DNA of 64,000 nt, taken from assembly GCA_023511995.1 (NCBI GenBank), contig JAIMAL010000014.1, forward strand, positions 1 to 64,000, written 5' to 3'. Positions 12,399-20,700 of this stretch are shown here, one piece after another. The stretch is from Burkholderiales bacterium (GTDB lineage: Bacteria; Pseudomonadota; Gammaproteobacteria; Burkholderiales; Thiobacteraceae). Position 1 is the first letter of the stretch; every line of letters starts with the position of its first letter. Made by a program: the position numbers and the translations under genes. The notes below the pieces were generated by a model. It searched no databases. It worked only from the letters and a program-made list of their open reading frames with translations, and was not told where the DNA came from.

Positions 12399-12872
12399 TC
12401 AGTCACGCAGCCGGCTGAAGACGAAGTCGTGGTCTTTCTGCTGGGCGTGGCAGTCGAAACAGGCGCTCTTGGCGTTCGCCCCCACCGCCCGCTTGCCCGG
12501 CTCACCCCCGGCGAAACCCTCGAAGCCCCAGCCACCGGTGGCAGCATAACGCTTGGCGTCCTTGTGCATGACCCCCAGCACCTTGCGGCTGCCTTCGGTC
12601 ACGGCATTGTCCTTGCGCTGGGCTTCCAGGAGATCGAAGACGATGACCGAGCCATCGGGGAAGCGGCCCGCCTTGTACCCCTGCATGGCCTTGGCATTGG
12701 CATAGAGATGGTGGATGCCGCCGAAGGACCCATACAGGGGATGCCCCTCCTCGATCACCATGCTCTTGACGTGGTGCCAGTCACGATAGCCCGTGGGATA
12801 GGGCACGTCCGCCGCCATCGCCGGCGCGGCGAGCCCCGCCAGGAGCAGAAAAAGCAGAGATGGCTTGTTCAT
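12399..12872 (-). CDS. Cytochrome P460 family protein (periplasmic c-type haem protein)
   Basis: 157 residues from ATG 12872 (AAGGAGGTCATC upstream, a strong site). Residues 1-20 are a cleavable signal peptide ending AMAAD. The body has the P460 fold pattern (YPTGYRDWHHVKSMVIEE, GSFGGIHHLYAN, FPDGSVIVFDL). A single haem-attachment motif CFDCH lies at 138-142. Family members oxidise hydroxylamine or NO, or act as NO-binding cytochromes. The Lys cross-link residue of true P460 cannot be confirmed by eye. Divergent from a MarR regulator with a shared operator-rich gap, so it is probably controlled by it. Confidence 0.88.
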   Translation of the reverse strand: MNKPSLLFLLLAGLAAPAMAADVPYPTGYRDWHHVKSMVIEEGHPLYGSFGGIHHLYANAKAMQGYKAGRFPDGSVIVFDLLEAQRKDNAVTEGSRKVLGVMHKDAKRYAATGGWGFEGFAGGEPGKRAVGANAKSACFDCHAQQKDHDFVFSRLRD

Positions 12873-12899
12873 GATGACCTCCTTGACGTTGGTTGATGA

Positions 12900-12974
12900 T
12901 GCATCGACTCGATGCACGATTAAGCGTAGACTCGATACATCAGGCTTGTCAAGCCGTGCTTCGAGGCGATACAT
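12900..12974. promoter_or_regulatory. Operator cluster between the cytochrome P460 and marR genes
   Basis: A perfect 17-base palindrome, TGCATCGA-C-TCGATGCA (12900-12916), is followed by two more copies of one arm: CTCGATACAT at 12931-12940 and GGCGATACAT at 12965-12974. The third copy lies just before the MarR start codon at 12982. A candidate -35 TTGTCA (12945-12950) sits between copies. The arrangement fits MarR-dimer binding controlling both divergent genes, with autorepression. Confidence 0.65.
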
Positions 12975-12981
12975 TAGCCCC

Positions 12982-13545
12982 ATGAGCCAGGTTCCCCTTC
13001 TCCTCGAACGGCTGGGCGCGCTGCTCGCGCAGTCGGTGCGCGAAGAGGCCGCGCGCCACGGTCTCCTGCCCATTCATCTGCAGGTGCTGCACTACCTGTC
13101 GCGCGCCAATCGCTACAGCGATATGCCCATCGCCATCGCCGAATATTTCGGCATCACCCGCGGCACGGTCTCGCAAACCCTCGCCGTGCTGGAACGCAAG
13201 GGCCTGCTCGCCAAAAAAGCCGACCCGCAGCACGGCAGGCGGGTGCATTTGCGCCTGACGGCGGCGGGCAGGGCCGCGCTCAAAGGGAGCTGGCCCGAGC
13301 GCATCGAACAGGCCCTCACGCATCTATCCGGGGAGGCCACCCACCTGGAAGCCACCCTGCGCGCGCTGCTCACGACCCTACAGACCCTCAACGGCCAGCG
13401 CGCCTTCGGCCTGTGCCGGGAATGTGCCCACTTCCTCCGGGAAAAGGATGGCGCCCGCTGCGGCCTGACCGGCGAACCCCTGGCGGCGGAGCAGACGGTG
13501 CGCATCTGCCGTGACTGGACCGCCCCGGCGGAAGGCCGCCTTTGA
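12982..13545 (+). CDS. MarR-family regulator with a four-cysteine C-terminal extension
   Basis: 187 residues from ATG 12982 (MSQVPLLLERLGALL). The winged helix spans residues ~30-100 (LQVLHYLSRANRYSDMPIAIAEYFGITRGTVSQTLAVLERKGLL, and a wing at DPQHGRRVHLRLT). Beyond the usual ~140-residue MarR length it adds a tail with Cys145, Cys148, Cys160 and Cys176 (C-x2-C-x11-C-x15-C), a plausible Zn or Fe-S ligand set. Divergent from cytochrome P460, it may sense NO, hydroxylamine or redox state and repress that gene. The sensing role is inference; the fold is clear. Confidence 0.9.
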   Translation: MSQVPLLLERLGALLAQSVREEAARHGLLPIHLQVLHYLSRANRYSDMPIAIAEYFGITRGTVSQTLAVLERKGLLAKKADPQHGRRVHLRLTAAGRAALKGSWPERIEQALTHLSGEATHLEATLRALLTTLQTLNGQRAFGLCRECAHFLREKDGARCGLTGEPLAAEQTVRICRDWTAPAEGRL

Positions 13546-17386: not shown

Positions 17387-18589
17387 CTACCAGCTCGCTT
17401 CCTTCTCCGGTGTCGCGGAAATGTGGTGCAGGGAAAGATCAGCGCCGTTGAATTCCTGCTCCTGATCGAGGCGGATACCCACCGTGACCTTGAGCAGGCC
17501 ATAGACCAGAAATCCGCCCAGCAGGGCAATCGCCACCCCCAGCAGCGTGCCCAGCAGCTGGGCGGGGAAACTCACCCCACCCAGGCCGCCCAAGGCGGGC
17601 TGGCCGAAGATGCCGGCGGCGATGCCACCCCAGGCCCCACACAGGCCGTGCAGGGGCCACACCCCCAGCACGTCGTCGATTTTCCATTTGTTCTGGGTGA
17701 GGGTGAACAGCCAGACAAACAGACCGCCCGCCACGCCGCCGGTGATGAGGGCGCCGACGGGATGCATGAGGTCGGAACCGGCGCACACCGCCACCAGCCC
17801 CGCCAGCGGGCCGTTGTGCACAAACCCCGGGTCGTTGCGGCCAACAAACAATGCCACCAGCGTGCCCCCCACCATGGCCATCAGGGAATTGACCGCCACC
17901 AGGCCGCTGATTTTGTCGACGCTCTGCGCCGACATCACGTTGAAGCCAAACCAGCCGACGGTGAGGATCCACGCCCCCAGCGCGAGAAACGGAATACTGG
18001 AGGGCGGATGCGCCGTCATCGCCCCATCCTTGCGGTAGCGTCCTTGCCGCGCCCCCAAAAGCAGCACCGCAGCAAGCCCGATCCAGCCGCCCACCGCGTG
18101 CACCACCACCGAGCCGGCAAAGTCATGGAAGGGCGCATTTAGGCTGGCGGTGAGCCACTGCTGAAAACCAAAGTTGCCATTCCAGACGATCCCCTCGAAA
18201 AAGGGATAGACGAAGCCAACCAGGAGGAAGGTTGCGGCAAGCTGGGGATGGAATTTGGCGCGCTCAGCAATGCCCCCGGACACGATGGCGGGAATGGCCG
18301 CGGCAAAGGTGAGCAGGAAGAAAAACTTCACCAGTTCGTAGCCATTCTTTTGCGCGAGCACCGCGGCCCCGGCGAGGAAATGCACGCCGTAGGCGATGCC
18401 ATAGCCGATGAAGAAATAGGCGAGCGTCGAAACACAGAAATCGGCAAGAATCTTCACCAGCGCATTGACCTGGTTTTTCTGCCGCACCGTCCCGAGCTCC
18501 AGAAAGGCAAACCCCGCGTGCATGGCCAGCACCATCACCGCCCCCATGAGCACGAAAAAGGCATCCGTTGCGGCTTTCCCGGCATCCAT
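17387..18589 (-). CDS. amt: Ammonium transporter (Amt/MEP/Rh family)
   Basis: 400 residues from ATG 18589 (GGGAGG upstream), with about eleven membrane helices. Family motifs: the first pore His in HDFAGSVVVHAVGG and the second in WPLHGLCGAWGGIAAG, plus DDVLGVWPLHG. The short cytoplasmic tail ends FNGADLSLHHISATPEKEASW. It moves ammonium across the inner membrane. No glnK/PII gene is adjacent, although amt and glnK are commonly linked. The upstream region has a strong sigma-54 promoter and an NtrC dyad, so expression should rise under nitrogen limitation. Confidence 0.95.
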   Translation of the reverse strand: MDAGKAATDAFFVLMGAVMVLAMHAGFAFLELGTVRQKNQVNALVKILADFCVSTLAYFFIGYGIAYGVHFLAGAAVLAQKNGYELVKFFFLLTFAAAIPAIVSGGIAERAKFHPQLAATFLLVGFVYPFFEGIVWNGNFGFQQWLTASLNAPFHDFAGSVVVHAVGGWIGLAAVLLLGARQGRYRKDGAMTAHPPSSIPFLALGAWILTVGWFGFNVMSAQSVDKISGLVAVNSLMAMVGGTLVALFVGRNDPGFVHNGPLAGLVAVCAGSDLMHPVGALITGGVAGGLFVWLFTLTQNKWKIDDVLGVWPLHGLCGAWGGIAAGIFGQPALGGLGGVSFPAQLLGTLLGVAIALLGGFLVYGLLKVTVGIRLDQEQEFNGADLSLHHISATPEKEASW

Positions 18590-18622
18590 GGCTCCCTCCC
18601 GATAAAAAAGTACGCACTCGAA

Positions 18623-18640
18623 TAGCAAACGCCGTGCCAA
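18623..18640 (-). promoter_or_regulatory. Sigma-54 (RpoN) promoter of amt
   Basis: On the minus strand TTGGCACG-GCGT-TTGCTA matches the -24/-12 consensus TGGCACG-N4-TTGCW exactly. Predicted transcription start is near 18612, about 24 bases before the amt ATG at 18589. This implies activation by an enhancer-binding protein. Confidence 0.88.
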
Positions 18641-18727
18641 TGAAGCAAAAGAACCGCCCACACGCGGGTTAGCGCCTCGATCTGGGGCGCAGCGCGTGCG
18701 CGATCTCGCCAGACTGGTGCACGGCGC

Positions 18728-18742
18728 GCACCATCCCGGTGC
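18728..18742. promoter_or_regulatory. NtrC-type enhancer dyad upstream of amt
   Basis: GCACC-ATCCC-GGTGC, a perfect match to the NtrC consensus half-sites (GCACC-N5-GGTGC), is centred about 120 bases upstream of the predicted sigma-54 start. An extra GGTGC half-site at 18716-18720 makes a second, overlapping dyad (18716-18732). Together with the sigma-54 promoter this indicates nitrogen control of amt. Confidence 0.78.
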
Positions 18743-18793
18743 GGAAGCCAGGGCGGACGCCCCGATATGGTGCCGGAAAAGAGAGGACGCCCC

Positions 18794-19333
18794 TCAACGG
18801 GGAACGGGTTTCTTGGCGAGTTTGCGCTGCAGCGTGCGGCGGTGCATCTTCAGGGCGCGGGCGGTGGCGGAGATGTTGCCCTGATGTTCGGCGAGCACTT
18901 TCTGGATGTGCTCCCATTCGAGCCGGTCCACGCTCAGCGGTTCGGCGCTCACGGGCAGCGACGGATCGCCGGCTTCGCGACCAAGGGCGGCGACGATCTC
19001 ATCCGGGGCGGCGGGCTTGGCGAGGTAGTGGGTGGCACCCAGTTTGATGGCTTCCACCGCGGTGGCGATGCTCCCATAGCCGGTGAGCACCACGATGCGC
19101 ATGTCCCGGCGCAGGCGGGTGAGTTCCCGCACCAGGGCGAGGCCGGACATACCCTCCATCTTGAGGTCCACGACGGCAAAGGCGGGCGGCCGCCTGCGCG
19201 CGGCCAAGAGCGCCTCCTCACCGCTCGCTGCGGCGTGGACGCGAAAGCCCCGGCGCTCTAGGGCGCGCCCGAGCACCCCCCGCAGCGTGGCATCGTCATC
19301 CACCAACAACAAATCCCGGTCGGCTTCAACCAT
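18794..19333 (-). CDS. regA: Redox response regulator of the RegA/PrrA/ActR/RoxR family
   Basis: 179 residues. The receiver (residues ~6-120) has LLVDDD, acceptor Asp in FAVVDLKMEGMSG, VVLTGYGS and YLAKP. The C-terminal Fis-type helix-turn-helix reads GNISATARALKMHRRTLQRKLAKKP, the near-invariant DNA-recognition sequence of this family. It is phosphorylated by RegB under reduced quinone or low oxygen and regulates respiratory, carbon- and nitrogen-assimilation genes in known hosts. It overlaps the regB stop by 8 bases. The ammonium transporter lies just downstream but has its own promoter. Confidence 0.94.
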   Translation of the reverse strand: MVEADRDLLLVDDDATLRGVLGRALERRGFRVHAAASGEEALLAARRRPPAFAVVDLKMEGMSGLALVRELTRLRRDMRIVVLTGYGSIATAVEAIKLGATHYLAKPAAPDEIVAALGREAGDPSLPVSAEPLSVDRLEWEHIQKVLAEHQGNISATARALKMHRRTLQRKLAKKPVPR

Positions 19334-20627
19334 GCCCCTCCCCCCTCACCAGGGGCAGACGCACCTCGGTGACCGCCCCACCCCCCAAGCGGTTATGTAT
19401 CGCCACCCTTCCCTTAAACCGCTCAATGGTGGCATTGGCGAGGTAAAGACCAATGCCCAGGCCCTCCCCCGAGGGGGGCGTGAGGAAACGTTTGCCCGCT
19501 GCTTCGATGATCTCCCGCGCAAGCCCTGGGCCGCGGTCGAGGATGCGCAACACCGCCTCCTCCCCTTCGACGACGGCCGCCAGTTCCACGCCCGCCGCTG
19601 ACACCCGCGCCGCATTGTTGAGGAGATTGAGGAGGGCCTGCTCCAGGGTGTCGTCGGTGCGGATGCGGACCTCCGGCCCCACAGCGGAGGAGAGGGTGAG
19701 CGCCATGGCCGGCCACAAAAGCCGCCAGCGCTCCGCCACCTGCTTAAGGAAAGCAGGAAGGCTCACCTCCTGCGCCACCTGCTGGGGAAGCTGCTCCACC
19801 GACTCCACCAGGCGCTGCAGCACCGCCTTGCACTGTCCCACCTGGGTGCGGATGAGCGCGAGCTGCGGGGCAAGGTCAGGGTCCCCGGCAAACTCCTCCT
19901 CCAATTCGGCGGCCACCACCGCCACCGTGGCCAAGGGCGTGCCCAGCTCATGGGCGGTGCCCGCCGCCAGCGTGCCCAGGGCAACGATGCGTTCGTTGCG
20001 CAGGGCCTCCTCCCGCGCGCGGGAAAGCTCCCGCTCCCGCGCCCGCAGCGTCTGCGCGAAACGCTGCACGAAAAAGGTGATGAGGGCCGCGCTGATGACG
20101 AAATTGAGCCACATGCCCAGCACATGCAGTCCGAACTGGCCACCTCCATGCATGTGCAGGGCGTGCCGTCCGCCACTCACCAAGGTGGTGAGGGGCGTTT
20201 CCTGCTCCATCCCCGGCAGGGGCACGTAGTACTCCAATAGCAGGGTGTAGCAGGCCACCGTCACGAAAGCCATGGCCCAGGCCCGGGGTGCCGACAGGAG
20301 CGCTGCCGCCACCGACAGCGGCAGCAGGAATAGGGAAACGAAGGGATTGGTGGCGCCGCCGGTGAAATAGATGAGCAGCGCCAGGGCGGCGACATCCACC
20401 AGCAACTGGGCAAACAGCTCCGCTTCCCGCACCGGCCCGCCCCAGCGCAACCGCACCCAGGTGAGGAGCAAAAGGACAAGCAGCGCTCCCACCACGCTGA
20501 GCATGGGGCCCAGGGGAAGCGCAAGCCCCAGCCAGAAGACGGCAACGCCAATGGTGGCGAGCTGGCCGGCAATCTCGATGGAACGCAGCACCTGCAGATA
20601 GCGCAGGCTTTGGCTTTCGCTGTGCAT
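19326..20627 (-). CDS. regB: Redox sensor histidine kinase of the RegB/PrrB/ActS/RoxS family
   Basis: 433 residues from ATG 20627 (MHSESQSLRYLQVLRSIEI). The upstream extension to 20684 lies in promoter and hairpin DNA. Six membrane helices occupy residues ~15-190, with the quinone-binding loop GGATNPF at 90-96. The H-box AAGTAHELGTPL holds the phospho-acceptor His226. Cys266 in GQCKAVLQRL appears to match the redox-active Cys265 of Rhodobacter RegB. The ATPase domain ends GEGLGIGLYLANATIERFKG. It senses quinone redox state and phosphorylates RegA, encoded directly downstream. Confidence 0.94.
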   Translation of the reverse strand: MHSESQSLRYLQVLRSIEIAGQLATIGVAVFWLGLALPLGPMLSVVGALLVLLLLTWVRLRWGGPVREAELFAQLLVDVAALALLIYFTGGATNPFVSLFLLPLSVAAALLSAPRAWAMAFVTVACYTLLLEYYVPLPGMEQETPLTTLVSGGRHALHMHGGGQFGLHVLGMWLNFVISAALITFFVQRFAQTLRARERELSRAREEALRNERIVALGTLAAGTAHELGTPLATVAVVAAELEEEFAGDPDLAPQLALIRTQVGQCKAVLQRLVESVEQLPQQVAQEVSLPAFLKQVAERWRLLWPAMALTLSSAVGPEVRIRTDDTLEQALLNLLNNAARVSAAGVELAAVVEGEEAVLRILDRGPGLAREIIEAAGKRFLTPPSGEGLGIGLYLANATIERFKGRVAIHNRLGGGAVTEVRLPLVRGEGHG

Positions 20628-20649
20628 GGAAACTTGGGCGAAGGTCGTG

Positions 20650-20655
20650 ATTATA
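20650..20655 (-). promoter_or_regulatory. Candidate -10 element for regBA
   Basis: A perfect TATAAT on the minus strand (plus-strand ATTATA, 20650-20655), 22 bases before the regB ATG. The -35 region falls in the hairpin of the upstream terminator and is weak (CAGGGC), so an activator may be needed. Confidence 0.5.
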
Positions 20656-20669
20656 GCGCCGCCGCACGC

Positions 20670-20700
20670 CCCGCCCTGCGACACGATGTCGCAGGGCGGG
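20670..20700. terminator. 14-bp perfect hairpin between the aminopeptidase gene and regB
   Basis: CCCGCCCTGCGACA (20670-20683) pairs fully with TGTCGCAGGGCGGG (20687-20700) around a CGA loop, 6 bases after the aminopeptidase stop. No U-run follows on the minus strand. It likely ends or stabilises the herA-aminopeptidase transcript and insulates regBA. Confidence 0.7.

Follow-up and report, generated by a model that had tools for sequence, protein, structure and literature searches.

According to Table 2 of a 2025 review (PMC11928373), the deciding residues of N. europaea cytochrome P460 are Lys70 and Glu96. The cytochrome c'-beta of Methylococcus capsulatus (PDB 6hih) is given there with Phe61, Gly82, and a Phe32 cap, and neither it nor any other c'-beta protein in that table oxidises hydroxylamine. 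The review also states that the precise role of any cytochrome c' is still to be determined, and by a word search, MarR occurs in it in the reference list only.

Among repressors, ArnR of Corynebacterium is described as a winged-helix [4Fe-4S] protein that represses hmp and whose binding to DNA is abolished by NO (PMC12343034). CioR of Chromobacterium violaceum is described as a MarR protein that represses its own operon, which also encodes an NO-protective cytochrome bd, and its inducer, among the compounds tested, was cyanide and not NO (PMC11837568). SlyA, for its part, senses aromatic carboxylates (PMC12506092). A literature search by title and abstract opening, with few subscription journals covered, gave no report of a cytochrome of this P460-fold kind paired with a MarR regulator or of this four-cysteine tail.

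The divergent pair and the class of its cytochrome

The pair considered here lies within a window of 64,000 nucleotides (the whole stretch of DNA analysed) from a Burkholderiales bacterium. An initial annotation of the window had reported a cytochrome beside a MarR regulator with a cysteine-rich tail, the two sharing an intergenic region with three operator-like sites, and this observation is confirmed. Both genes are found where it placed them (Table 1), divergent and with their start codons 109 bp apart; the tail has exactly the spacing C-x2-C-x11-C-x15-C; and the 17-base palindrome is present as TGCATCGACTCGATGCA. The two half-sites said to accompany the palindrome do exist as repeats, but each proves to be an imperfect copy of the whole 17-bp site, in register with it.

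Table 1. Positions of features in the window, with one site elsewhere in the same genome (contig named)
Feature	Positions	Strand	Description
Cytochrome c'-beta gene	12399..12872	-	157 aa, N-terminal signal-like stretch, CFDCH heme site
Operator-like site 1	12900..12916	.	perfect 17-bp palindrome, cytochrome side, 0 mismatches
Operator-like site 2	12923..12939	.	3 mismatches, register as site 1
Candidate marR promoter TTGTCA-18-TACATT	12946..12975	+	promoter scan; ends 6 bp before ATG
Candidate cytochrome -35 (TTGACA)	12947..12952	-	tentative; overlaps marR -35, no good -10 after it; missed by scan
Operator-like site 3	12957..12973	.	2 mismatches; between marR -35 and -10, reaching into -10
Four-Cys MarR regulator gene	12982..13545	+	187 aa; PF12802 MarR_2 E 4.7e-14, above cut-off
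C-terminal Cys4 tail of MarR	13405..13542	+	Cys145, 148, 160, 176
Ammonium-transporter-like gene	17387..18661	-	presumed
Response regulator	18794..19333	-	ORF reading
Sensor kinase	19326..20684	-	ORF reading
Operator-like site, frataxin branch	G000:C2:28490-28506		own genome; branch loci L144-L154, L156, L157, L161

The cytochrome had been annotated as a P460. Its fold is indeed that of P460 (PF16694, E 1.2e-34) and its heme site is of the CXXCH type, but its class is c'-beta. A search of the PDB returns 6hih as the best match, with an E-value of 4.5e-58 across all 157 residues, and Phe32, Phe61, and Gly82 are all kept. At the position of the heme-Lys cross-link the window protein has Phe, where Lys is found in 8/8 P460 rows, and at the position of the distal carboxylate it has Gly, where seven of the eight P460 rows have Glu or Asp. 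The Phe/Phe/Gly pattern is present in 21 of the 22 c'-beta-type rows from the class survey described below, and the exception (G061, locus L071) reads L/V/V. Because the three c'-beta residues are kept and the cross-linking Lys is absent, the protein is predicted not to be a hydroxylamine oxidase of the P460 type and would be expected to bind NO or CO.

The initial annotation had gone further, proposing a nitrosative-stress circuit in which a metal- or Fe-S-bearing MarR controls an NO/hydroxylamine cytochrome; in the fuller form of this reading, the cytochrome oxidises hydroxylamine. That fuller reading draws on the P460 fold, but the window protein has Phe in place of the cross-linking Lys and Gly in place of the distal carboxylate, and the c'-beta proteins in Table 2 of PMC11928373 lack hydroxylamine oxidation. 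We therefore consider it highly improbable.

Elsewhere in the window, at 17387-20684, a gene like those of ammonium transporters lies beside two-component genes. The latter (18794-20684) we take to resemble RegA/RegB.

The regulator, its cysteine tail, and its operator-like sites

The regulator carries a MarR winged-helix domain, which scores 52.7 bits with MarR_2 (cut-off, 27), followed by the tail. In 33 aligned tails, a selection made up of 30 members of a 41-row alignment and three plasmid members, the only columns without any variation are those of the four Cys. The full-length rows tell the same story, with four Cys in 40 of 41; the exception, L139 (G311), is frame-shifted and has its tail in another frame. 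At that locus (G311:C1:516311-517231) the reading frames of MarR and cytochrome both appear frame-shifted, through sequencing error or decay. The 41 rows comprise the window protein, L003, and 39 of 40 longer regions drawn from the MarR matches, one of which is the paralogue from the window's own genome. L131, whose tail is intact, is missing because its reading frame runs off the contig. Seven regions were left out of the longer set (L022, L023, L026, L042, and L046-L048), and four of them (L022, L023, L042, and L046) carry the four-Cys tail by pattern.

A search across the phylum gave MarR matches at E 1e-12 in 34 of 299 genomes. All four Cys are present at the 18 loci with E-values of 3.1e-19 or lower, the window included (14 judged by pattern and four, with longer loops or extensions, by eye), and the pattern is absent from the 12 weaker loci examined. 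This E-value border of the family is not absolute, since L046, a weak match at the level of the class, has such a tail. On the whole, the alignments support the Cys set as the mark of a MarR family.

Among known domains, no Pfam family matches the tail above cut-off; the weak matches below it are to zinc-ribbon, HiPIP, and ferredoxin-like models, each in at most 4 of the 33 members, and the PDB provides no convincing match. Descent from a HiPIP was considered, as the spacing of the Cys resembles that of the PF01355-type Cys4, but it was set aside: hhalign, with four sequences, gave a global E-value of 0.1 and, locally, an E-value of 0.0087 with a probability of 4.6%. A zinc MarR of the AdcR type was set aside as well, as NCBIfam NF038251 has no match above its cut-off in the window protein; the Thermus relative scores 37.4 bits against that family's cut-off of 175. 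An AlphaFold model of the regulator, made from a two-row alignment, has a mean pLDDT of 66.0, with blocks of the tail at 49-61, and carries no weight in what follows.

We think it rather likely that the Cys4 tail is the sensing site of the regulator. It quite possibly holds zinc, possibly an Fe-S cluster, and, with lower probability, no metal at all. The tail might instead be structural, its Zn(Cys)4 site stabilising the dimer, with a small organic ligand in the MarR pocket serving as the signal, as in SlyA, whose response to aromatic carboxylates (PMC12506092) is a precedent. Some tails do weakly resemble zinc ribbons, although below cut-off (four of the 33 match DZR_2, with a lowest E-value of 0.0016), and because the four Cys are the sole invariant columns of the 33 tails, their conservation fits a structural or a sensing site alike. 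The partners of the family, however, are redox and gas-binding proteins (see below) and not proteins of aromatic metabolism, and we judge a structural tail with a ligand-filled pocket to be fairly unlikely.

The three sites in the intergenic region start 23 and 34 bp apart, and measured against TGYATCGANTCGATRCA, the second and third have the mismatches given in Table 1. At three mismatches or fewer, the 17-bp site occurs at 20 places in the 2.5-Mb genome, three of them within the 109-bp gap; the chance that at least two of the other 19 places would fall there is about 3e-7 (Poisson), a figure that omits the site that suggested the pattern. The best place outside the gap (C1:274793, two mismatches) is found among ORFs that read as phage-like and looks like chance, and the idea of a regulon defined by the operator in this genome was rejected.

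Many relatives have a common operator, TAGTATCGAnTCGATACTA, often with one of its copies within the marR promoter. It is found at 14/18 or better upstream of marR at 25 of 37 loci of subfamily A (11.8 kb searched) and not at the other 12, whereas the background over 493 kb of sequence from these loci is 18 matches, some of which may be real. The 37 loci are the 41 alignment rows minus L141 and L158-L160. Because the pattern was derived from the same loci, these counts describe conservation and are no independent test. The window's own sites match TAGTATCGAnTCGATACTA at 12/18 at best. At 17 of 39 loci a site begins 25-28 bp ahead of the ATG of marR, the motif TTGTCAA stands 34-37 bp before that ATG at 16 of 39, and a further operator site is often present on the cytochrome side. 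To judge by sequence, then, the locus has what is usual in the MarR family, a palindromic operator beside a divergent promoter or the regulator's own.

A promoter scan of the gap recognises one promoter, that of marR alone (mean in shuffles, 0.1). It ends so close to the ATG that a nearly leaderless marR mRNA is predicted. TTGTCAA is TTGACAA on the opposite strand, and the two genes may therefore share overlapping -35 boxes, a tentative suggestion; the -10 of the cytochrome gene is weak in the window.

Recurrence of the pair and the other partners of the family

A survey of 369 genomes of the class found a MarR match (E 1e-10) in 26 and a P460-fold match in 35, of which 22, at E 3.3e-28 or better, are of the c'-beta kind. 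MarR matches occur in 18 of the 22 genomes with c'-beta versus 8 of the 347 without (Fisher p 6e-21, which overstates independence, as the genomes are related). One step of the comparison took 25 of the 26 MarR-match genomes (all but G342) and four more from the P460-fold survey. At the level of loci, a four-Cys MarR stands beside the c'-beta-type gene in 17 of the 22 genomes. In 13 it belongs to the close subfamily A and is adjacent or within 0.81 kb (12 divergent, one on the same strand); in the other four it belongs to the distant subfamily B and is adjacent. As for the rest, the c'-beta gene of G014 and G185 (L055 and L059) adjoins a divergent HxlR-like regulator with no MarR (by Pfam for G185 only), that of G154 and G033 is near a contig end with no adjacent MarR, and that of G249 has no MarR within 1.5 kb.

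The pairing extends to Thermus plasmids. In the two records examined, of 22 with a cytochrome match, pTT27 of T. thermophilus HB27 and pTHEOS01 of T. oshimai carry the cytochrome gene followed on the same strand by a MarR gene, 9 and 7 bp further on, in an apparent operon, and both MarR tails have four Cys. The start of a Thermus c'-beta gene (L162, 7300-7480) is preceded by TTTAGGAATCCC, which resembles a sequence of the TTAGGATTCC type before the subfamily-B marR of L025; possibly, subfamily B uses a different operator. Against the pairing, no MarR of the four-Cys family lies within 6 kb of the c'-beta gene on a P. aeruginosa plasmid. None is present at any of the eight P460-proper loci examined, of 15 places, and this too argues against the hydroxylamine circuit of the initial annotation.

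One might suppose that the cytochrome is a neighbour with no regulatory tie and that the targets of the MarR are its own gene or distant ones. The scan, after all, recognises only the marR promoter, and other members of the family have other neighbours. But adjacency in 17 of 22 genomes, involving two distant MarR subfamilies, and again in Thermus, speaks against this, as does the position of site 1, towards the cytochrome gene. Independence of the two genes seems improbable, and the regulator very probably acts locally, repressing its own gene and controlling the cytochrome as well. In a tree, the window MarR groups with L142 and L003 with full support, the frataxin-linked MarRs form another well-supported group, and the cytochrome-linked MarRs are not a single clade, with 4 changes versus a shuffled mean of 11.9.

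The other neighbours of family members, sought within 4 kb (1.5 kb at short loci) and by Pfam on representatives, include a small thioredoxin-like protein with a CxxC motif, an AhpC/TSA redoxin, DUF2024, ROF, a protein of no known family (labelled cl43), a MOSC-domain protein, and the frataxin CyaY. Subfamilies A and B have in common c'-beta, the thioredoxin-like protein, the redoxin, DUF2024, cl43, and MOSC; several members have none of the sought partners within those distances. The cl43 protein looks secreted and matches nothing in Pfam or NCBIfam, with PDB matches that are weak (E 0.04 and worse). The MOSC partner has as its top NCBIfam match 6-hydroxyaminopurine reductase (E 4.8e-40; 137 bits, below the cut-off of 294), a neighbour that lends something to the hydroxylamine circuit discussed above. 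At L169, L167, L181, L183, and L184, alphaproteobacterial and related loci, a four-Cys MarR is followed by a MOSC-domain gene on the same strand.

The window's own genome has a second four-Cys MarR (L002, G000:C2:30424-30948), 44% identical to the first and directly after frataxin cyaY. An Fe-S assembly gene, cyaY adjoins a MarR at nine other loci at the level of the order. Each of the 14 frataxin-type loci (a raw count; Table 1) has a site resembling the operator at 13/18 or better on the far side of lysA, some 1.4-2.2 kb ahead of marR. At L161, the one locus read by eye, that distant site precedes a histone-H1-like frame (AAKKPAAKK repeat) on the other strand.

A possible sensor-repressor and its described relatives

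At the level of sequence, the analysis establishes the divergent pair of the window, its three in-register palindromes, one of them within the marR promoter, the conserved Cys4 tail, and the recurrence of the pairing in Pseudomonadota and in Thermus. The pair is probably a conserved two-gene module whose MarR repressor, bearing the Cys4 tail, controls an exported, gas-binding cytochrome c'-beta, and the regulator is best read as a Cys4 sensor-repressor that holds down its own gene and serves in redox or reactive-nitrogen defence. MarR dimers on the 17-bp sites would repress marR as well as the cytochrome gene. Once the Cys4 site, whether zinc, an Fe-S cluster, or bare thiols, is attacked by a redox or reactive-nitrogen signal, the regulator would lose its hold on DNA, and the cytochrome would be made and bind NO. 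The odds are about even that NO or some other reactive nitrogen species is part of the signal. Since c'-beta binds NO, NO is the best single guess; the thioredoxin-like, redoxin, MOSC, ROF, DUF2024, and frataxin partners of other members fit oxidative or reactive-nitrogen defence and suggest a signal wider than NO alone. The nitrosative-stress circuit seen in this locus by the initial annotation is thus supported in part.

Perhaps, although this is doubtful, the four-Cys MarRs make up a class not yet described, extending from Pseudomonadota to Deinococcota, that senses NO and related nitrogen oxides by an Fe-S (or Zn-thiolate) site and controls a shared defence set. Just as tentatively, that set might consist of cytochrome c'-beta, the CxxC thioredoxin-like protein, the AhpC/TSA redoxin, a MOSC N-hydroxyl reductase, ROF, and DUF2024, and the class might take in a branch, in Burkholderiales, that is linked to frataxin and to a histone-H1-like gene. 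If it were so, c'-beta would gain a dedicated regulator, which would point to its role.

A pair that recurs in distant bacteria offers a practical route to the role of a gas-binding heme protein. Thermus thermophilus can be genetically manipulated, and since the neighbouring repressor is conserved into that species, the role of c'-beta is open to direct experiment: find the inducer. The family, its P. aeruginosa member included, also ties several small, uncharacterised stress-type proteins (DUF2024 and the CxxC thioredoxin-like protein) to one likely kind of signal.

The cytochrome of the window is matched over its whole length by that of M. capsulatus, with Phe32, Phe61, and Gly82 alike. For the pair, the likeness is to HB27, where c'-beta likewise adjoins a MarR with a four-Cys tail (TT_RS10590/TT_RS10585). 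Unlike the window's, these genes share a strand, the cytochrome first and the gap 9 bp, and their MarR is one of the more distant ones, at about 37% when compared with the window protein in tblastn.

Closer to the window's regulator is a P. aeruginosa MarR of the same family, WP_003086060.1, with 47% identity over 87% of the window protein, the four-Cys tail, and the same type of operator before its gene as in the window's family. It differs in being divergent to a thioredoxin-DUF2024-ROF cluster with no cytochrome, in having an AAGGAGG-type site before its ATG, and in having been found on a megaplasmid. We take it to be PA0942. In the literature searched for an inducer of this locus, the portions available name PA0942 or PA0939 only in lists, one of which gives PA0942 as an oxidative-response gene lowered by a plant extract, and they point to no inducing condition.

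CioR resembles the window's regulator as a MarR that represses its own operon along with a cytochrome, but that cytochrome is of the bd type, and the account consulted (PMC11837568) names a single Cys (C52) and does not describe a four-Cys tail. ArnR, like the window MarR, joins a winged helix to C-terminal Cys, although it has three of them (179, 193, and 223) in a different spacing (PMC12343034), and any homology of the tails would be putative. Conserved Cys that could serve as ligands, as in regulators of the ArnR/NsrR kind, are present in the window's family as four invariant Cys.
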